Shown here: piece by piece, positions 2,376-43,530 of the stretch | Numbering within the stretch: the first letter of the stretch is position 1 | Layout: the number at the start of each line of letters is the position of its first letter | Assembly: GCA_007121535.1 (NCBI GenBank) | Contig: SKKK01000387.1 | Coordinates: 1 to 47,458, forward strand | Reading direction: 5' to 3' | DNA length: 47,458 nt | From: Planctomycetaceae bacterium | GTDB taxonomy: Bacteria; Planctomycetota; Planctomycetia; Pirellulales; Pirellulaceae | Program-made: the position numbers and the translations under genes | Notes under the pieces: generated by a model | The model's input: only the letters and a program-made list of their open reading frames with translations | Told to the model about the DNA's origin: nothing | Database searches by the model: none

Positions 2376-3047
2376 TCAAGGAACATTTTCTTGAGACAAG
2401 GCCGCCGTCACTTCGGTCCATTGCTCGAAAGGGCGAAAGGCAAGGCCTTCTTCCCGGCAGGCGGCTGCCAGATCGTCTCGAGCGAAACGGTGATGTGCGG
2501 CGACCAGGCGGGCGGCTTCGAAATCCGGAAAACCGTCCCCAGCAAACGCGACCGTGTGCGTTTCCTGCTGGAACGTCCGCACCACCGCGGCCTTGTCGAT
2601 GCCCGTCTCCCGACAAGAGTGGGCTGAATCGGCGGGGCGTTCCATGATCAGACGGCCGTCGACGACACGACCGGGATTGGCAAAGATGGGCATTTGCACT
2701 CCCGCACGGCCAAGCAGTTCTTGGATGTACCAAGAGCAACCGGCTGAGACAATGACGATCTCCCAACCAAGCTCTCGCAACCGCTCAACGTGCTCGGCCA
2801 GATCCGCCGGTACTTCCATCCTGTCGATCATGTCGAGCAGCGCCGACTGGCCGCCCTGGGCCGCCGCGAAGAACGCATCCAGGGCATCGAAATGCGTCAT
2901 CGTACCCTCGCGGTATTCACGCCAATAATCGGGCGTGCCTGGGGGAACCAGATGCTTGCGGACTAACTGATAGAAATTGGGGCGAGCGAGCGTGCCGTCA
3001 AAGTCGGACACGAAGACAGCACGCCGCTGGGCTGGGATATGAGGCAC
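2376..3047 (-). CDS. HAD-IB family phosphatase (MtnX/SerB-like)
   Basis: A 223-residue haloacid-dehalogenase phosphatase with motif I VSDFDGTL (nucleophile Asp15, acid/base Asp17), motif II IVSAG and motif IV AFAGDGFPDFEAA. The length and the cap inserted after motif I fit subclass IB (phosphoserine phosphatase, MtnX). The start is GTG 3047; no better ATG is seen. It lies 16 bases upstream of the glycerol-1-phosphate dehydrogenase start on the same strand. A plausible but unproven role is dephosphorylation of the dehydrogenase product or of a related polyol phosphate. A 99-bp mobile element and a weak sigma54-like site lie upstream. Confidence 0.78.
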   Translation of the reverse strand: MPHIPAQRRAVFVSDFDGTLARPNFYQLVRKHLVPPGTPDYWREYREGTMTHFDALDAFFAAAQGGQSALLDMIDRMEVPADLAEHVERLRELGWEIVIVSAGCSWYIQELLGRAGVQMPIFANPGRVVDGRLIMERPADSAHSCRETGIDKAAVVRTFQQETHTVAFAGDGFPDFEAARLVAAHHRFARDDLAAACREEGLAFRPFEQWTEVTAALSQENVP

Positions 3048-3075: not shown

Positions 3076-3174
3076 GCACCGTTCGAGAAATAACTGACGC
3101 ACTTTTTGCCCCCTCACCCTGCCCTCTCCCACGAGGGGCGTGGGAACATCGGACAGTTATTTCTCGAACGGTGT
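3076..3174 (+). mobile_element. 99-bp palindromic element, copy A
   Basis: Terminal inverted repeats CACCGTTCGAGAAATAACTG (3077-3096) and its complement (3154-3173) enclose an asymmetric core rich in CCCTCACCCTGCCCTC. The element is flanked by TTA on both sides (3073-3075 and 3175-3177), read as a 3-bp target duplication. It has the same length and core as copies at 5783 and 16267. It has no coding capacity, so it is MITE-like. It lies in the leader between the HAD gene start and a possible sigma54 site. Confidence 0.85.
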
Positions 3175-3267
3175 TTATCGGGATCTTCGGATCACGGAGA
3201 TTCACGGATCTTGATCTGATGGTTCATGTTGAATTCGTTGAATTCGCGTGTTGTTGCCGTTATCAGT

Positions 3268-3284
3268 GCATCTGGAGTGCCAAA
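3268..3284 (-). promoter_or_regulatory. Weak sigma54-like promoter for HAD-G1PDH
   Basis: On the minus strand TGGCACtccagATGCA has a perfect -24 half and correct GG-to-GC spacing, but ATGC instead of TTGC at -12. It faces the HAD gene and shares the TGTCG dyad at 3404-3425 with the divergent usp promoter, which raises its credibility. Confidence 0.35.
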
Positions 3285-3403: not shown

Positions 3404-3425
3404 TCTGTCGCAGCGGCACGACAGA
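3404..3425. promoter_or_regulatory. Perfect dyad, candidate activator binding site
   Basis: TCTGTCG, an 8-base spacer, then CGACAGA: a perfect inverted repeat of 7-bp halves. Its centre is about 111 bases upstream of the predicted usp start of transcription and about 157 upstream of the divergent HAD one, a normal distance for an enhancer-type activator site. The left half (TCTGTCGCAGCG) recurs in front of htrA. Confidence 0.6.
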
Positions 3426-3498: not shown

Positions 3499-3515
3499 CT
3501 GGCATGCAGTTTGCA
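3499..3515 (+). promoter_or_regulatory. Sigma54 (-24/-12) promoter of usp-tal
   Basis: CTGGCATgcagtTTGCA matches the consensus YTGGCACGNNNNTTGCW with one change (C to T) and exact 12-base GG-to-GC spacing. Transcription would start near 3526, leaving a leader of about 140 bases before the universal stress protein gene. Confidence 0.65.
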
Positions 3516-3666: not shown

Positions 3667-4113
3667 ATGAAAGCCGACACGATTCTGGTTGCCATCGACT
3701 TTTCCGAATACCAGGAGACCGTACTGGGCTTGGCGACGTCCTTGGCCAGTGCGTGCGGAGCCCGGTTGGTGATCGTCTATGCTGCGGACCCGGCGCTGAC
3801 CTACGGAGAGAGCACGGTTTTCTCCGGGGAGTCCGACCCCCAGCGCGAGGTGATGGAGAAGATGCTGCTCGACGTCCGGCCGACCCTACCGAATGTGCGG
3901 TACACCCACCGCTATCTGACGGGCGTGCCTGCCGAAGCCATCGTCGAGTCGGCCAAGGAGGAGAAGGCCGACTTCATCGTCATGGGGACCCACGGCCGCA
4001 CCGGCATCTCCCGCGTACTGATGGGCAGTGTGGCCGAGGCGGTGGTCCGCACGGCGCCTTGCCCGGTCATCACAGTCAAAACCGGCAAGCAGCAGATGCA
4101 GGCCGACGACTGA
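3667..4113 (+). CDS. Universal stress protein (UspA family)
   Basis: A 148-residue single Usp domain. It starts TILVAIDFSEY with the conserved Asp11 and carries the nucleotide-binding pattern GTHGRTG (107-113) followed by GS at 120-121, so it is probably the ATP-binding type. The frame is open further upstream to 3439, but those residues have no family similarity, so ATG 3667 is taken as the start. Transaldolase follows 32 bases later on the same strand and is probably co-transcribed. The promoter region carries a strong sigma54 site and a perfect upstream dyad. Confidence 0.88.
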   Translation: MKADTILVAIDFSEYQETVLGLATSLASACGARLVIVYAADPALTYGESTVFSGESDPQREVMEKMLLDVRPTLPNVRYTHRYLTGVPAEAIVESAKEEKADFIVMGTHGRTGISRVLMGSVAEAVVRTAPCPVITVKTGKQQMQADD

Positions 4114-5650: not shown

Positions 5651-6748
5651 ATCTTTCCAGCTCTTTCGGCGTAATGTTGTCAGCATGTCTGCGAAACTTG
5701 GCTCTGACTTCCACCAATACCAAAAACGATCGGGAATCCGCCATTCCGCGTGTCCTTCGGTCGCGTACCATACGATGGTTAAGCACCGTTCGAGAAATAA
5801 CTGTCCAATGTCCCCTCGCCCCTCGTGGGAGAGGGCAGGGTGAGGGGGCAGAAAGTGCGTCAGTTATTCCTCGAACGGTGCTAAGCTGTAGAGAAACATG
5901 GCCATGGGGGCTGTACGCCGGACTGCCTTGGGGGCACGGCTGGCGGGATCTTCCAGTCCGAGATGCTGCTTGCAATCAAAGTGTGTGACCTCGATCGCTC
6001 AACGCAACGAGAAAATCGAAAGGATCTTCAGCGGATCCAAGCTCTCGTCGGTGTTGTAGAAGATGCGCGTCGGTCGACCGCCGACGGTATGTTGCGAGAG
6101 AACAAATCGCAGCAACCGATCTTTGCCTGCTTTGTAATACAGGCCGGTTTGCGTCTTTACGCGATACGACCCATGCAAGCCGTATTGGTCGAAGTGCATG
6201 ATCTTCCAGCGGGTACCATCTTTCTCCCAAGCTCCGAGACTCTTCAGCCGATCACCCTTTTTGCGCCGTGGACCTCGGCGTACTTTGGTCTCTGGTGGGG
6301 CCGGCGCATAGAGCGCCGCTCCGGCATGAACGGGACCGATCAAATCAAAGTTGTCCGGCAGCGTCGACAACACACTCGCGCCACTGTAGAGGCTGTCAAC
6401 GACCAGAACGAACTTGCGATCGGGAAACCAATCGGCCACCAAGGCCACCATCTCAGCCATCAGTTCGGGCCGTGTTTTGCGGGGTGTCTTGTCGGATTGG
6501 TGAACCGCACGCACGTTGGCGGCAGCTTTCCTCCTTGCTTCGGCGGCCCGCTTGGCCTTGTTCGAAGCGGCCTTCCTTTGGTTGGCGGTGGGCTTCTTAC
6601 CGGCTTTACGTTTACCTTTGGCCAGTCCCTCCCGATTTCGATACAGACGCATGCTGATGGGCAGCGCGAAGACTCTGCTGGGTGCCCACCGGGGATGGGC
6701 AATCACGATCGAAAGATTGACCCAGTCATGGCCCCAATGACGACTCAT
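5609..6748 (-). pseudogene. IS701-like (DDE_5) transposase remnant
   Basis: The frame from 6748 to 5997 carries DDE-transposase features typical of this family (WGHDWVNLSIVIAHPRW, LYRNREGL, a basic Ala/Lys stretch, LVVDSLYSG). It is broken by TGA at 5997-5999, exactly where TGG (Trp) is expected, because the same frame continues AIEVTHFDCKQHLGLEDP and RTAPMAMFLYSL. There copy B of the 99-bp element is inserted. Removing it with one target duplication joins TIVWYATEGHAEWRIPDRF and continues to a TAA at 5609-5611. The N-terminal third of the family is absent beyond 6748. It is therefore a nonsense-mutated, interrupted and 5'-truncated gene. Confidence 0.85.
5783..5881 (-). mobile_element. 99-bp palindromic element, copy B
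   Basis: Same arms as copy A, with the core in opposite orientation, flanked by TAA on both sides (5780-5782 and 5882-5884). It interrupts the transposase remnant. Deleting the 99 bases and one TAA restores the transposase frame, which fixes both the boundaries and the 3-bp duplication. Confidence 0.9.
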
Positions 6749-6995: not shown

Positions 6996-7017
6996 CTTGT
7001 CTGATCGCTGCGACAGA
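6996..7017. promoter_or_regulatory. Candidate activator site upstream of htrA
   Basis: On the minus strand TCTGTCGCAGCG is identical to the left part of the usp dyad. The opposite half after the 8-base spacer is AGACAAG (4 of 7 matches to CGACAGA). The centre is about 108 bases upstream of the predicted htrA transcription start, nearly the same distance as at usp. Confidence 0.5.
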
Positions 7018-7087: not shown

Positions 7088-7104
7088 GCGGCATGGAAAT
7101 TGCA
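7088..7104 (+). promoter_or_regulatory. Sigma54 (-24/-12) promoter of htrA operon
   Basis: CGGCATggaaaTTGCA has correct GG-to-GC spacing (7090-91 and 7102-03). The -24 box differs from TGGCAC at two positions and the -12 box is perfect. The start would be near 7115, about 30 bases before the ATG. Confidence 0.55.
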
Positions 7105-7144: not shown

Positions 7145-8866
7145 ATGACCACGTACACCAAACGGCAGAATTGGGCAATCGTTCTCGGACTGGCACTGGG
7201 GGGCTGGCTCGTTTGCGCGGGCTGCGAGCCGAACAATCAAACGCCCGTCCCTCCCGTGGTGCCGGCAGAAGACGAGCCGGCAGAAGACGAGCCGGCGGAA
7301 GACGAGCCGGCGGAAGACGAGCCGGCGGAAGACGACGGGACGGCGGAAACGGACGGAGTCGAGTCTGCCGAGAACGCGCCGGCCGCTGACGACCACGAAG
7401 TGTCTGCCAAACCGCTCCCGGAAGAAATCGCCACGGAACGTCTTACCGCGTTGAGCGATTCGTTTCGAGAAGTGGCCAAGGCGGCCAGTCCAAGCGTAGT
7501 TCAGGTGGCCGTAGAGGTGCGCCCGCGGGCCCGCAGACGCTCCCCGGATCTCTCCGAGGAAGAGCTGGAGGAGCTGCGGCGGCGTTTCGGTCCGCTGCTG
7601 GACCGGCACCCCGAGTTGCAGCCGTTCTTTCGCGGACGACGTCAGCCGCAGCAGCAGCCGAATTACGACCGCTACAACGTGCCCCTGCCCATCGGCAACG
7701 CCAGCGGTTGGGTTTATGACCGGCAGAGTCACGTGATCACCAGCCATCACGCGGTCGTCCAGGCAGAACAGATCACAGTGACGTTGTACGACGATACGGA
7801 AGTCAACGCCCAGTTGATCGGGTCCGACCCGCCGACGGACGTGGCCGTGCTGAAGATCCACACTGAGAATCTGCCTCCGGCAACGCTCGCCGAGCAGCCC
7901 GTGGAGCAGGGCGACATCGTGCTGGCGATCGGCTCGCCGTTTCGGTACGCGTTTTCGGTCAGCCAGGGGATTGTCTCGGCCACGGAGCGTCAGGTAGGCA
8001 TCCTCGGCCCGCAGGGCTATGAAAGCTTCATCCAAACCGACACGGCCATCAATCCCGGCAACTCGGGCGGCCCGCTGGTCAATGCGCGGGGCGAGGTCGT
8101 CGGCATGTGCACGGCCATCGCCAGCCGCACGGGGGCCTTTGCCGGGCTGGGATTTGCCACGCCCGTGGACTTGATCCGCGAAGTGGCCGACGCGTTGATC
8201 CGCGACGGAATTGTGAAACGCGGTTATCTGGGAATGGTCATCAGCGATGATCGGGGAGTTCTCGCCAGTTTCGATGCGGAAACCGGTGTGCTGATCGAAG
8301 ATCTGGTCGAAGGCGGCCCGGCCGATCAAGCGGGCCTTCGACCGGGCGACATCATCAAGGCGATGGACGACGAAGCGTTCGAAGACGCCGGGACGCTCCG
8401 GGAACGCGTCGCACGAAGCGAGCCGGGACAGTCGATTCGTGTTCGGCTGTCGCGCGAAGGCGAACAGGTAGACGTTCAGGTGACCCTCGGACAGCAACCG
8501 GTCGAACCCGAGGACCCCGACGAGCCGGTTCCGGTGGAGCCGCCGGGGCCGGAGGAGCCGGGGGAAGCCGAGGCCCTAGCCAAGCTTGGGTTTCAACGTC
8601 TGGTCGCGCTCACGCCGGAAATCGCTCGCGAGCACGACTTGGATACGTCCCGCGGCATCCTGGTGCTTGGCGTGCGGCGATTCAGCTCGGCGGCCATCGC
8701 CGGTCTCCGCCAGGGCCACATCATCGTCCAAGTGCACGGACAGGAAGTGACCGATATCGACGGTCTCCGCCAGGCGGTCGAGGCGCGCGACCTGGACGAA
8801 GGCGTGCGGATGCGGGTGCAAGCTCCCGGCGGCCCGGCACGCTTTGTACTCCTGTCGTTGGAATAG
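7145..8866 (+). CDS. htrA: HtrA/Deg-type serine protease, lipoprotein, two PDZ domains
   Basis: A 573-residue periplasmic protease/chaperone. The N-terminus is a signal peptide ending VCAGC (Cys27), so the protein is probably lipid-anchored. An acidic linker of EDEPA repeats follows (about residues 41-63). The trypsin-like domain has all three catalytic residues: His202 in ITSHHAV, Asp232 in TDVAVLK and Ser307 in NPGNSGGP. PDZ1 begins near GYLGMVI and PDZ2 lies at the C-terminus. ATG 7145 is chosen because the signal peptide begins there. The glycosidase gene follows after 88 bases and the glycosyltransferase overlaps that, suggesting one operon behind the sigma54 promoter. Confidence 0.9.
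   Translation: MTTYTKRQNWAIVLGLALGGWLVCAGCEPNNQTPVPPVVPAEDEPAEDEPAEDEPAEDEPAEDDGTAETDGVESAENAPAADDHEVSAKPLPEEIATERLTALSDSFREVAKAASPSVVQVAVEVRPRARRRSPDLSEEELEELRRRFGPLLDRHPELQPFFRGRRQPQQQPNYDRYNVPLPIGNASGWVYDRQSHVITSHHAVVQAEQITVTLYDDTEVNAQLIGSDPPTDVAVLKIHTENLPPATLAEQPVEQGDIVLAIGSPFRYAFSVSQGIVSATERQVGILGPQGYESFIQTDTAINPGNSGGPLVNARGEVVGMCTAIASRTGAFAGLGFATPVDLIREVADALIRDGIVKRGYLGMVISDDRGVLASFDAETGVLIEDLVEGGPADQAGLRPGDIIKAMDDEAFEDAGTLRERVARSEPGQSIRVRLSREGEQVDVQVTLGQQPVEPEDPDEPVPVEPPGPEEPGEAEALAKLGFQRLVALTPEIAREHDLDTSRGILVLGVRRFSSAAIAGLRQGHIIVQVHGQEVTDIDGLRQAVEARDLDEGVRMRVQAPGGPARFVLLSLE
7261..7335 (+). repeat. Five 15-bp tandem repeats encoding AEDEP
   Basis: Five in-frame copies of GCCGGCRGAAGACGA, the first two with A and the last three with G at the variable position. 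They encode the acidic linker after the lipid-anchor cysteine of the protease. Confidence 0.9.
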
Positions 8867-13347: not shown

Positions 13348-14367
13348 TTAGGCTGTTATTGCCGCCTGATTGACGATGTTTTGGCCTTCGCCTCGAATGT
13401 ACGATTCGATGTTGTCCACGGTTGTTTCCAGGATGCGTGAAACGGCTTCCCGCGTGTTGAAGGCGCTGTGAGGCGTGACGACCACGTTGCGCAGACGAAT
13501 GAGCACGTGGTCGGCCAAGAGCGCGTCCAGGTTGTGCTTCCGCTCGTACACAGAACGAAGCAGCTCGGCCTCTTCGCGAATGACCGGTTCCTCGGGCAAC
13601 ACGTCCAGGCCGGCCCCGCACACTTTGCCTTCGGCCAAGCCCCGCACCAGTGCCTGGCTGTCGATCACATTGCCCCGTGAAGTATTGATGATGATCGCAC
13701 AGTCCTTCATCTGCGCGATTTGTTTGTACGAAAGCAAGTGCCGTGTTTCCGGCGTCGAGGGAACGTGCAGACTGATCACATCGGCGCGCTGCAGCAGTTC
13801 GTCCATGTCGACGTACGTGAAACCGATCTGTTCAGCCGCTTCGGCATCGGGTTTCACGTCGCATGCGATCACTTCCATGCCAAACCCGAGCGCGATACGG
13901 ATCACGTGCCGTCCGATGTTGCCGGTGCCGACCACGCCGAACGTCTTGCCCTCCAGATCGAAGCCCTGGAGCCCGCGGGGGGAGAAGTCGCCTTTCCGGG
14001 TGCGATCGATGGCCTGGTCCATTTTGTGGCTGAGCGTCAGCAGCAGCGCGAATACGTGTTCTGCCACCGTATTGTCGCCATAGGTCGGTACGTTGCACAC
14101 CGCCACGTCATGCTGTTCGCAATAATCGAGATCGATGTGGTCGACCCCGGTCGAACGGGTGGCGATCAGCTTCAAGTTGGGAAATTGTTCCAGCACTTTG
14201 CGGTTGAGCCGGGAGTAGATGAACGTCGAAACGGCCTCGGTATCGGCATGCTCGCTCGCGTTCTCGGCCGAGAGCGAGTCGCTGAGCAGCTTGACGTCGT
14301 GTTGCTGGCGAAGGTCCTCGAAGGCCTGGCGTTCCCAGGCCTCCAAGTCAAAAATTGTCATCTTCAT
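13348..14367 (-). CDS. D-2-hydroxyacid dehydrogenase (D-lactate dehydrogenase-like)
   Basis: A 339-residue NAD-dependent dehydrogenase. The Rossmann motif is VVGTGNIGRHV, the substrate Arg is in INTSRGNVID, Glu in VLPEEPV and the catalytic His in VTPHSAFNT. It reduces a 2-oxoacid such as pyruvate to the D-hydroxyacid, or the reverse. The insert ERKHNLDALLADH before the final motif resembles fermentative D-lactate dehydrogenases. ATG 14367 has AGGAG eight bases upstream; a second ATG lies two codons on. A strong sigma54 promoter lies about 65 bases upstream, consistent with regulated redox balancing. Confidence 0.87.
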   Translation of the reverse strand: MKMTIFDLEAWERQAFEDLRQQHDVKLLSDSLSAENASEHADTEAVSTFIYSRLNRKVLEQFPNLKLIATRSTGVDHIDLDYCEQHDVAVCNVPTYGDNTVAEHVFALLLTLSHKMDQAIDRTRKGDFSPRGLQGFDLEGKTFGVVGTGNIGRHVIRIALGFGMEVIACDVKPDAEAAEQIGFTYVDMDELLQRADVISLHVPSTPETRHLLSYKQIAQMKDCAIIINTSRGNVIDSQALVRGLAEGKVCGAGLDVLPEEPVIREEAELLRSVYERKHNLDALLADHVLIRLRNVVVTPHSAFNTREAVSRILETTVDNIESYIRGEGQNIVNQAAITA

Positions 14368-14429: not shown

Positions 14430-14446
14430 TGCAAACCGTATGCCAC
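14430..14446 (-). promoter_or_regulatory. Sigma54 (-24/-12) promoter of hydroxyacid dehydrogenase
   Basis: On the minus strand TGGCATacggtTTGCA has exact spacing and one change from the -24 consensus. Transcription would start near 14419, leaving a leader of about 50 bases. Confidence 0.65.
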
Positions 14447-14507
14447 CAGGCAGGCCGGCGGCAACCACCGCATTCCGCTGTGGAACATGGCTCCACGCCC
14501 GTCAGGC

Positions 14508-14525
14508 TGTCGCATCACGGCGCCA
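14508..14525. promoter_or_regulatory. TGTCGCA half-dyad upstream of hydroxyacid dehydrogenase
   Basis: TGTCG, 8 bases (CATCACGG), then CGCCA: four of five match to the second half CGACA. The centre is about 98 bases upstream of the predicted transcription start. Confidence 0.4.
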
Positions 14526-14582
14526 AGCTGTCATGCACAGCGGGTGCGGCCGGCCTTTGGCGCCGCCATGGATCAGCATGGA

Positions 14583-16044: not shown

Positions 16045-16053
16045 TCTGTCGCA
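16045..16053. promoter_or_regulatory. TCTGTCGCA site between divergent sigma54 promoters
   Basis: Identical to the first nine bases of the usp and htrA sites. The second half of the dyad is not recognisable. It lies about 77 bases upstream of the predicted start for the exported protein and about 138 upstream of that for cfa, so one activator site could serve both. I see no gene in the remaining 15801-16381 intergenic region. Confidence 0.45.
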
Positions 16054-28503: not shown

Positions 28504-28520
28504 TGCAATTCACGTGCCGC
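28504..28520 (-). promoter_or_regulatory. Sigma54 (-24/-12) promoter of N-ATPase operon
   Basis: On the minus strand CGGCACGtgaaTTGCA matches the consensus except the first T, including the G after GGCAC, with exact spacing. The start would be near 28493, 69 bases before the atpD ATG. Confidence 0.65.
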
Positions 28521-28606: not shown

Positions 28607-28613
28607 TGTCGCA
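28607..28613. promoter_or_regulatory. TGTCGCA site between atpD and the PRC-barrel gene
   Basis: TGTCGCA followed by ATGTCCGGCA; only the first half of the dyad is clear. It lies about 122 bases upstream of the predicted N-ATPase start and about 235 upstream of the weaker divergent promoter. I see no gene in 28521-28820; the minus-strand open frame there has no family features. Confidence 0.4.
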
Positions 28614-33577: not shown

Positions 33578-33585
33578 CTGTCGCA
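33578..33585. promoter_or_regulatory. CTGTCGCA site upstream of CsbD promoter
   Basis: CTGTCGCAG lies about 200 bases upstream of the predicted CsbD operon start. The second dyad half is poor. It is the most distant of the sites and the weakest case. Confidence 0.3.
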
Positions 33586-34816: not shown

Positions 34817-35794
34817 ATGCAGACACTCGAAGGCAAACAACCAAGCAAGTTGAAGTTTGAGAAGATCGTAACTTCTTCCGACCTGATGCTGCCCGTATTC
34901 GACCGGGTCAGTCGAGTGGCGGAGTTCGACACCACGGTGTTGATCCGGGGCGAGTCGGGCGCGGGAAAAGAACTCATCGCCGAAGCCATTCATGCCAACA
35001 GCCCGCGGCGACGTAAACCGTTGGTGGTCATCAACATGGCCGCCGTGCCCAAGGACTTGCTCGAAAGCGAACTCTTCGGACACATCGCTGGCGCTTTCAC
35101 CGGTTCGACAGTGACGCGGGAAGGACGGTTCGAGGCGGCCGACGAGGGGACCTTGTTCGTCGACGAGATCGGCGACCTGGCGCTGGAATGTCAAGCCAAG
35201 TTGCTTCGCGTCCTGGAGAATCACTGTGTCACGCCTGTCGGCAGCAACCAGGACCGGCATATCGACGTGCGAGTGATCGCGGCCACGAACCGCAATCTGG
35301 AGAAGATGGTCCGCAAAGGCGAGTTTCGCGAGGAGTTGTACTATCGGTTGAACGTTGTGTCGGTCACTTTGCCTCCGTTGCGAGAACGGCCTGAGGATAT
35401 CGAGATCTTGTTCCAGCACTTCCTGGACAACTTGTCTCGGACCTACTCACGGCCCGCGCCGGTGCCCGACGCGGAACTCATGCGTTACCTGAAATCCTAT
35501 CGTTGGCCCGGCAACGTCCGCCAATTGCGCAATTGCGTCGAAAGCATGTTCGTACTGGCGGATTCGCCGACGCTGACCATGAACGATCTCCCGGCAATGA
35601 TCCGCAACGACAGGCAGCAGGAGGTTTTGATCGACATTCCCGAAGGCCTGACACTGAAACAGTTCCAATCGGCGATCGTTCGCCAGACACTGGACCGTTG
35701 CCGGGGAAACCGCACGCACGCGGCGAAGTTGCTCGGCGTCTCGGTGCGGACGCTTCAGCGGCAACTGAACCGGTGGGAACGCGTTCCCGCATAA
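34817..35794 (+). CDS. Sigma54-dependent transcriptional activator without receiver domain
   Basis: A 325-residue enhancer-binding protein. The AAA+ domain starts near residue 13: Walker A GESGAGKE (45-52), ELFGHIAGAFTGS (86-97), Walker B LFVDEIGDL, sensor VRVIAATNRNLE, arginine-finger region LYYRLNVVSVTLPPLRERPE, and RWPGNVRQLRN. The C-terminal Fis-type helix-turn-helix is NRTHAAKLLGVSVRTLQRQL. No N-terminal sensory domain is present, so control must be by expression or by partners (PspF-like layout). The sigma54-contact loop reads GAFTGS, not GAFTGA. ATG 34817 has TCAGGAGG upstream. It is the best candidate to act on the nearby -24/-12 promoters. Confidence 0.92.
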   Translation: MQTLEGKQPSKLKFEKIVTSSDLMLPVFDRVSRVAEFDTTVLIRGESGAGKELIAEAIHANSPRRRKPLVVINMAAVPKDLLESELFGHIAGAFTGSTVTREGRFEAADEGTLFVDEIGDLALECQAKLLRVLENHCVTPVGSNQDRHIDVRVIAATNRNLEKMVRKGEFREELYYRLNVVSVTLPPLRERPEDIEILFQHFLDNLSRTYSRPAPVPDAELMRYLKSYRWPGNVRQLRNCVESMFVLADSPTLTMNDLPAMIRNDRQQEVLIDIPEGLTLKQFQSAIVRQTLDRCRGNRTHAAKLLGVSVRTLQRQLNRWERVPA

Positions 35795-42154: not shown

Positions 42155-42514
42155 CTAAAGAGGCGCTCTGGGGTGCCATGATCTTCGCATCAATTGCCCG
42201 ACTTCGTCGGCCTCGCCAAACAACTCGACAACCGCCCGGACTGCCTCGTCCGCCTCCGGTCCAGTCGCTGACAGCGTCAGCGGCGTACCCTGCGTAGCGG
42301 CCAACAGCATCAGCCCGAGAACGCTCGCGGCGTCCTCCGAGTGGTCGCCCTTCTGCAGCGTAACCCTGGCTTGGTACTGCCCCACCAGTTCCGCAATGGC
42401 AGCACACTTCCGCAAGTGGAGGCCTTCCGGGGTGTTCACCCAGACCGTTTGCATCACCTTGGTTTCACGCGAGTCTGCGTACTGGACGGCAGCCGGATAT
42501 TGCGCTTCGGGCAT
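42155..42514 (-). CDS. HPr-like phosphocarrier protein
   Basis: 119 residues, with an HPr fold from residue 21 (MQTVWVNTPEGLHLRKCAAI). The phosphorylatable His is present (His33), but the usual HARP reads HLRK. The regulatory-serine region is DAASVLGLMLLAA (Ser64), where HPr has a serine before IMGLM. The 20-residue N-terminal extension depends on the start: ATG 42514 has AGGA nine bases upstream, while 42454 would give the standard length. No EI or EII genes are nearby, so a regulatory rather than sugar-transport role is likely. Confidence 0.75.
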   Translation of the reverse strand: MPEAQYPAAVQYADSRETKVMQTVWVNTPEGLHLRKCAAIAELVGQYQARVTLQKGDHSEDAASVLGLMLLAATQGTPLTLSATGPEADEAVRAVVELFGEADEVGQLMRRSWHPRAPL

Positions 42515-42927
42515 TTCAAGGATCCTGCATGCGGTTGGAATTAGGGAGTTGCATGATTTGGCCGGGAACTTCCGTTACGGCGACCGCCGATGACTTGCCC
42601 CTGGCCGAAGGACAAGCGACACGTTCTCGCGATATCCTTATCAACTTATAGCACCGTGCGAGTGTTTGGGTATCCCGCAAATCTTGGTTCCTGTGTAACG
42701 AAAATCACCTCCCCCCAATAGGTGGGCTTGTCGCACAGGATCGGCCAAGTGAGCTGTCGCACTGCTAGGCGCCGAGACACCCCACTTCGGCTATGCCGAA
42801 GTCGTCTGAAAAGAGGGGCGCTATCGGCCCGGGTTGGCTATGCTCGGAGGTTAAGGGGGCGCGAAGTCAAGGGCGCGCGGGGTTCGACGCCGCCGGATGC
42901 ACCGCCGGTCCTCAAGCGGTTCATTCT
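42515..42927. other. Intergenic region, no gene seen
   Basis: It contains a small hairpin ACTTCGGC-TAT-GCCGAAGT (about 42783-42801) and two TGTCGCA motifs (about 42729 and 42755), but no -24/-12 promoter and no convincing open frame. A GGGGTTCGACGCC stretch near 42880 looks like a tRNA T-arm but has no cloverleaf. Confidence 0.5.
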
Positions 42928-43082: not shown

Positions 43083-43530
43083 ACTGTATTCTCGCTGGAA
43101 GCAGCGATCTTTCTGTGGGCCTTTTGCCGGACTGATCGGTGCCGCTTTGAGCTTGACCTGGCAAGAGGGATGACCATAAAATACGACAAAATGTCGCAGA
43201 GTGTCCTATTCCTTATGAGCCGGGCGGCGACGGTGATGAACGAAGGGACCGAACTGTGCCGCCAGGAAGACGCCTGGCGACTTTACGAGGAAATGAGCCG
43301 CAGCAGGGAAAGTGGATGATGAACCGGAAACCTTGGAAAATCGGGCGGAGGATGCGGTCCTGAGCGGGGCGATAGGCTCGTTCCTAGCGGCGCTCGCCGA
43401 ACGCTGCACGGCGGCCATCGTCAACGGACGCGACCGCCGAGATGCAGAGGGGAGTTTGCCATCGCGGTGCATGACCGCGATGTCGGCAGCACCCAGGAAA
43501 TCGGGGAGATCGAGGAAGGAGTATCAAATA
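43083..43530. other. Region upstream of the nucleoside hydrolase, uncertain coding
   Basis: A 49-codon plus-strand frame (43170-43319, MTIKYDKMSQSVLFLMSRAA) and a frame continuous with the next gene (from 43312, containing ENRAEDAVLSGAIGSFLAAL) are open, but neither is recognisable. They may be gene scraps. The true hydrolase start at 43531 has its own ribosome site and signal peptide. Confidence 0.35.

Follow-up and report, generated by a model that had tools for sequence, protein, structure and literature searches.

A TGTCG-N8-CGACA dyad as a candidate sigma54 enhancer of stress genes in a planctomycete genome

The usp dyad and its surroundings

The window, by which we mean the whole stretch of 47,458 nucleotides that was analysed, is contig C554 of a 9.32-Mb Planctomycetaceae genome in 706 contigs. 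It makes up 0.5% of the genome length yet carries 5 of the 54 perfect sigma54 sites of the genome, and its sigma54-rich cluster takes in usp, htrA and the CMAS-type methyltransferase, F-type-ATPase-like, CsbD, MscS-type and HPr genes. The features discussed below are collected in Table 1.

Table 1. Features of the window in order of position; a point in the strand column marks a dyad.
Feature	Position	Strand	Remarks
HAD hydrolase gene	2376..3047	-	possible divergent target of the usp dyad
Weaker sigma54-like site TGGCACTCCAGATGCA	3267..3282	-	opposite-facing; 121 bp from the usp dyad
Perfect dyad TCTGTCG-N8-CGACAGA (TCTGTCGCAGCGGCACGACAGA)	3404..3425	.	proposed usp enhancer, from sequence and promoter linkage
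sigma54 -24/-12 promoter of usp, TGGCATGCAGTTTGCA	3500..3515	+	starts 74 bp past the dyad end
usp, universal stress protein	3667..4113	+	Pfam Usp, 4.7e-33
Imperfect htrA dyad CTTGTCTGATCGCTGCGACAGA	6996..7017	.	core TGTC-N10-GACA
sigma54-like htrA promoter CGGCATGGAAATTGCA	7089..7104	+	71 bp past the dyad
htrA/DegP-type protease	7145..8866	+	Trypsin_2 + PDZ; 573 aa from ATG 7145
D-2-hydroxyacid dehydrogenase	13348..14367	-	
sigma54 promoter TGGCATACGGTTTGCA	14430..14445	-	60 bp from the degenerate dyad
Degenerate dyad, minus strand CTTGGCGCCGTGATGCGACAGC	14506..14527	.	contains the TGTCGCA of 14508
Bare TGTCGCA	16047..16053	+	without second half; unsupported as a site
sigma54-like site	28504-28519	-	before the F-type-ATPase-like operon
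Bare TGTCGCA	28607..28613	+	upstream of the preceding site; unsupported
Bare TGTCGCA	33579..33585	+	upstream of the CsbD gene; unsupported
Gene of the 34817 protein (P0001)	34817..35794	+	orphan sigma54 activator, 325 aa; Sigma54_activat + HTH_8, no receiver

Both seven-letter arms of the dyad ahead of usp are perfect, as an earlier note on this DNA had read them. The same note placed the dyad about 110 bases before the start of usp, a distance that holds for the inferred transcription start only, the end of the dyad lying 241 bp before the ATG. On the other side, the weaker sigma54-like site stands at a gap equal to that found at another dyad of the genome (C512, see below) and would serve the HAD/Fe-ADH genes as a promoter. 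A repeat of ~105 bases at 5780-5886 occurs in dozens of copies, mostly 87-99% identical, in two sister genomes (G511 and G009), and a related piece lies in inverse orientation at 3100-3177.

The 12-mer TCTGTCGCAGCG of the usp dyad has one further copy, on the minus strand at 7006-7017 ahead of htrA. The long usp/htrA match on which the earlier note had relied is real and extends further than was noticed then, the copy at htrA being part of an entire dyad core (TGTCTGATCGCTGCGACA, TGTC-N10-GACA, 6998-7015) with both halves present; the htrA dyad as a whole ends 127 bp before the htrA ATG. The htrA promoter and dyad region aligns with G009 at 82%, but the core letters are altered in both halves there (TTTGGC...GGCAAA), and no dyad stands upstream of G009's best usp match; judged by these alignments, conservation of the dyad at htrA and usp is poor. 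In G009 (L318 1788-2660), ~870 bases separate the htrA promoter from the htrA start region, which are neighbours in the window.

The heptamer TGTCGCA has 18 copies in the window against 9.68 expected and, since 3 of 100 shuffles also reach 18, is only mildly enriched, which agrees with the earlier remark that the heptamer alone is not rare. That note had also proposed several upstream heptamers as sites. The copy at 14508 belongs to a degenerate dyad, but those at 16047, 28607 and 33579 lack a partner half that would give a dyad score. TGTCGCA alone was rejected as an activator site save at 14508, and the bare heptamer would by itself mostly not be a site. Three same-direction copies (42729-42735, 42755-42761 and 43192-43198) lie in the stretch that separates the HPr gene (42155-42514, minus strand) from the ORF at 43312, and the search found no sigma54 site close to this trio.

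Linkage of the dyad to sigma54 promoters

The perfect dyad occurs twice in the genome (C512:2067 and C554:3404, the latter at usp), whereas 12 simulated genomes contain 0.17 on average. With up to one mismatch there are five places (additionally C202:8640, C439:3475 and C443:11356) against 3.3 simulated, and with up to two mismatches 38 against 67 simulated and 14 in the reversed control; these simulated counts come from genomes trained on 337 kb of retrieved loci, many of them chosen for dyads or promoters. Further letters on which the places agree were used to build a strict pattern, YTGTCGYR-N4-YRCGACAR, with seven exact places in this genome and none in the reversed control, a count that is inflated because the pattern was tightened on six of its seven places. 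Among other genomes of the order, 65 of 395 have any exact place, with a maximum of three per genome. Allowing one mismatch raises the count to 16 places, and that of the reversed control to 15. Since loose dyads are not in excess, raw abundance is weak evidence, and it is the linkage to promoters that is strong.

Linkage was scored as a match to TGGCAYN5TTGCW at 40-130 bp on either side of the 16 places; a single mismatch was tolerated, but none in GG or GC. Five of the seven strict dyads have such a promoter in range, at gaps of 73 bp (C202), 74 bp (usp), 75 bp (C439b), 94 bp (C439a) and 121 bp (C512), against a background of 52 in 7613 positions (0.68%) sampled in 20 loci. As a spacing control, the dyad with N10 instead of N8 has 17 places (6 in the reversed control), and none of the 15 with retrieved loci has a promoter in range. 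The binomial probability is 3e-10 for five of seven and 3e-8 for four of six without usp; for the dyad as originally described, with at most one mismatch and usp excluded, three of four places are linked (1e-6). No promoter with at most one mismatch was found at 40-130 bp from the strict dyads C196 and C443:11357, nor from any of the nine one-mismatch places, one of which (C149) has a promoter with two mismatches at a gap of 60 bp. By position, the same five of seven strict dyads lie within ~200 bp upstream of a -24/-12 promoter, as is expected of an upstream activating sequence. This excess over background lends good support to the earlier proposal of an upstream activator site for sigma54 promoters. 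As a separate observation, C439b (BON; L161 3572) and C512 (NfeD; L162 1945) have identical 16-base promoters (TGGCACTCGATATGCA) at their different dyad gaps.

The earlier note had set enrichment at all sigma54 promoters as a test. Regions upstream of the genome's 54 perfect sigma54 sites were scored with a leave-one-out dyad matrix, with downstream regions as control. Strong dyads stand upstream of two sites (usp and C439a), and weak dyads at 59-61 bp upstream of five, scoring 12.1 (window 14445-), 9.3 (C221), 8.5 (C512:3131), 6.3 (C160:24019-) and 4.8 (C160:26323), with two of the five no higher than the best downstream control (7.3, followed by 6.2). These amount to four independent cases, because C221 and C512:3131 share one duplicated region; three of the five combine a TTGGCG half with a TGCGACA half, which is TGTCGCA on the opposite strand. 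In its plain form, the enrichment was not found. Few dyads among 54 promoters are expected of one activator regulon among many, and we therefore do not count this result as a refutation.

The genes behind the five promoter-linked strict dyads encode Usp, a six-fold BON protein related to OsmY, a cation-transporting ATPase (N-terminal part only), NfeD and a lipoprotein-like protein of 203 aa (assigned by eye). Other genes preceded by a dyad are htrA, the hydroxyacid dehydrogenase gene and the C149 operon; a ferric-reductase-like protein gene also has a dyad, and no sigma54 site was found there. Taken together, the targets suggest a regulon for general, envelope or osmotic stress, and it is from these predicted gene products that we infer a stress signal.

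Candidate regulators and related systems

A Fis-type activator, suggested earlier as the reader of the dyad, is a fitting choice, as the candidates carry Sigma54_activat and a Fis-type HTH. Among the activators identified in the genome, four are closely related, namely the 34817 protein, a twin on C668 (88% identical to it, likewise without receiver) and two regulators on C149 and C443 (481 and 485 aa, 85% mutual identity, 56-58% to the 34817 protein), each of whose genes adjoins a kinase gene. Close relatives of the 34817 protein occur at 88% identity in PLM2.Bin2 and at 68-72% in five further Pirellulales/Planctomycetaceae MAGs. With Response_reg, Sigma54_activat and HTH_8 domains, the C149 regulator (P0002) is an NtrC-type response regulator; the C443 regulator would be one too, by its 85% identity over the length, and the 34817 protein, having no receiver, is not. 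All four share the recognition helix SVRTLQR (SVRTLQRQL in the 34817 protein), and some other activators of the family have different helices, e.g. GARTLYRR and DRKTLYRK. The motif of the sigma54-contacting loop is GAFTGA; it deviates to GAFTGS in the 34817 protein and to GSFTGA in the C149 regulator (L157 1324-2769).

The apparent C149 operon runs usp, small protein, SpoIIAA-like, usp, kinase, regulator, and the dyad 60 bp from the two-mismatch promoter described above stands upstream of it. At a C149-type usp promoter in a sister genome (G511:C52), the promoter and one half-site are conserved. On C443, 388 bp separate the dyad from the kinase ORF downstream of it. Kinase homologues in the sister genomes (G009:C18 and G511:C252, 75-78% DNA identity) are preceded by the block CGCTRCGGCARAYTGTCGYGGCGGYANGACRRWTTGACGGC, which they have in common with C443 across the dyad; outside this block C443 diverges from both, while G009 and G511 are alike over a wider stretch. 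No good sigma54 site was found beside these three kinase-gene footprints. Because the footprint stands upstream of kinase genes, the kinase-regulator pair is favoured as binder. The C149 and C443 regulators, whose own genes have the dyad upstream, are better candidates than the 34817 protein. The latter, proposed as binder in the earlier note, is a possible one by its shared recognition helix, but not the best.

It is worthwhile to set the dyad beside known systems. The accessible text of one source gives TGTC-N10-GACA as the site consensus of QseF/GlrR (PMC8745638), and the core and spacing of the glmY enhancers of E. coli are identical to those of the usp and htrA dyads. Upstream of glmY in E. 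coli K-12 we read three TGTC-N10-GACA sites in the sequence, one of them TGTCGCTTTCTGGCGACA; the sigma54 promoter lies ~90 bp from the nearest GlrR site, an enhancer-promoter layout as found here, and GlrK-GlrR is a kinase-regulator pair as at C149 and C443. A cell-envelope role of GlrR/GlrK is described in the part of PMC6075780 that is available. The candidate readers differ from GlrR in several respects. The C149 regulator and the 34817 protein were both rejected as GlrR (351 and 286.5 bits against an NCBI equivalog cut-off of 763), and the recognition helix is NRTEFYKLLSR in E. coli GlrR and SVRTLQRKLK here. Gene order differs as well (glmY-glrK-qseG-glrR in E. coli), and GlrR targets glmY, whereas here the targets are usp, htrA, BON and others; no Rfam family reached the gathering threshold in the four regulator/kinase loci, so there is no glmY in them. 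Judged from these comparisons, the site would work like a GlrR enhancer with candidate readers that are not GlrR.

NmpR of Myxococcus xanthus, an NtrC-like regulator of an oxygen-utilisation regulon, has dyad enhancers before sigma54 promoters, counts a usp gene among its targets and binds ahead of the operon of its own kinase, as far as the accessible text of PMC11841059 goes. Its sites, as given in that text, are GCGCA-N5-TGCGC and paired, unlike TGTCG-N8-CGACA, which is mostly single, and by eye the usp and htrA sites do not fit the NmpR consensus. The best models for the C149 kinase (AtoS 174.8 bits, ZraS 174.7 bits) and regulator (AtoC 419 bits) come from AtoSC/ZraSR; all three scores are below the NCBI curated cut-offs (646, 479 and 714), and the gene neighbours of these systems differ from the usp and SpoIIAA-like genes at C149. 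In Planctomycetia, sigma54 promoters are enriched before usp (UspA), MscS and chaperone genes, according to the available portion of PMC12316311. A named enhancer code or regulator for planctomycete sigma54 stress genes was not found in the accessible passages of open-licence papers. PMC12316311 also cites a study devoted to the sigma54 regulon in Pirellula sp. strain 1.

Proposed mechanism and alternatives

We consider it likely that the dyad is a sigma54 enhancer of a stress regulon whose probable reader is an autoregulated kinase-regulator pair. The dyad would serve sigma54 RNA polymerase as an upstream activating sequence, and we infer that its two half-sites, TGTCG(Y), which face inward, are read through the Fis-type HTH of a dimeric activator of the NtrC family. 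The activator would then assemble to a hexamer, loop to the -24/-12 promoter 60-121 bp away and open it by ATP hydrolysis. The predicted activator is the response regulator of the pair on C149, duplicated on C443, and the receiver-less paralogues, the 34817 protein included, may recognise this site or a variant of it. The putative regulon would comprise Usp, HtrA, the BON/OsmY-like protein, the cation ATPase, NfeD, the lipoprotein-like protein and the sensor-regulator itself, in keeping with general, envelope or osmotic stress. The regulon is new and built on the known sigma54-enhancer principle. These results name a concrete enhancer code, its targets and candidate regulators, and so open a planctomycete stress circuit to experiment.

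The binder might instead be the receiver-less 34817 protein with its C668 twin, acting constitutively or via another partner, while the two-component regulators control something else. We regard this as a possible but less probable reading. The 34817 gene shares a cluster with usp and htrA, and its recognition helix matches that of the C149 and C443 regulators. G009 has a close 34817 orthologue (88%), and at one G009 target the dyad GTTGGCG...GCGACAAT lies ~109 bp from a perfect sigma54 site. However, none of the 17 plain TGTCG-N8-CGACA places of G009 fits the strict dyad, no matrix dyad (score of at least 7) stands before the 34817 gene itself, and the loci of the 68-72% orthologues (L031, L032, L034, L164 and L165) hold weak matrix matches or none in the retrieved stretches. 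The conserved footprints, moreover, stand upstream of kinase genes. Among the matches listed for G009, which is a fragmented MAG of 91% completeness, the best to the C149 regulator is the 34817-protein orthologue (57%); a genome with this orthologue, no strict dyad and no closer match to the C149 regulator fits the kinase-regulator pair as binder.

A dyad of this kind would suit any dimeric regulator, and no sigma54 site was found close to two of the strict dyads or to the kinase footprints, as would be the case if the dyad were the operator of a repressor, or a site of some other factor, of the same stress genes at an incidental distance from the sigma54 promoter. We hold this to be improbable. 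Gaps of 60-121 bp upstream are typical of enhancers rather than of repressor operators; the promoter linkage is ~100 times the background, and the core equals that of a known sigma54 enhancer. Still further down we would place a chance palindrome of a GC-rich genome, which is very hard to credit: plain dyads at one to two mismatches are not above simulated genomes and the heptamer excess in the window is modest, but chance has to face the promoter linkage of 3e-8 without usp, the conserved footprint and the position of this genome as a count outlier among 396 genomes.

Returning to the enhancer with its kinase-regulator pair, a wider version of this reading can be put forward as speculation. 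A genus-wide sigma54 response to envelope or osmotic stress might be run by paralogous activators, two with receiver and kinase and two receiver-less, with one helix and one code, TGTCG-N8-CGACA; the code would have been reached independently of GlrR, in that it is equal although the reading helix differs, and in genus g10, which belongs to the same family, the half-site TGTCGCA would be otherwise arranged before the activator. It would be a possible case of one enhancer code with two different reading helices.

At the level of the family, a loose composite (TGTC-N10-GACA, 62-92 bp, GGCR-N7-TGC) was scanned over 100 genomes and has a match in 70 of them. A hand count gave 144 matches against 59 for the reversed pattern (~2.4 times, the reversed pattern being of different make-up), and in this genome 9 against 6; most of the listed matches are without the further letters of the dyad, and the excess over the family may reflect composition bias as well as a broader role of the core. 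Near same-helix activators of genera g10 and g53, no dyad of this form (score of at least 10) was found in 19 loci from 15 genomes, taken with ~1.5 kb on each side, some shorter, and including one locus with the helix variant SIRTLQR. In the same-helix loci of these genera (n = 15), TGTCGCA occurs 22 times against 11 simulated (maximum 20 of 200) and close TGTCGC pairs 9 times against 1.5 (maximum 5); at loci of other activators the counts are 13 against 20 and 3 against 4. The half-sites there have other arrangements, e.g. everted GTGCGACA-CCG-TGTCGCAC, before sigma54-like promoters. TGCGACA repeats lie ahead of the activator gene in four of nine aligned loci (L268, L271, L272 and L273), which suggests that the g10 activator may be autoregulated through another arrangement of half-sites. 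At ~1240-1280 of these four loci, the g10 SVRTLQR activator gene has TGCGACA-like repeats together with a sigma54-like promoter upstream.
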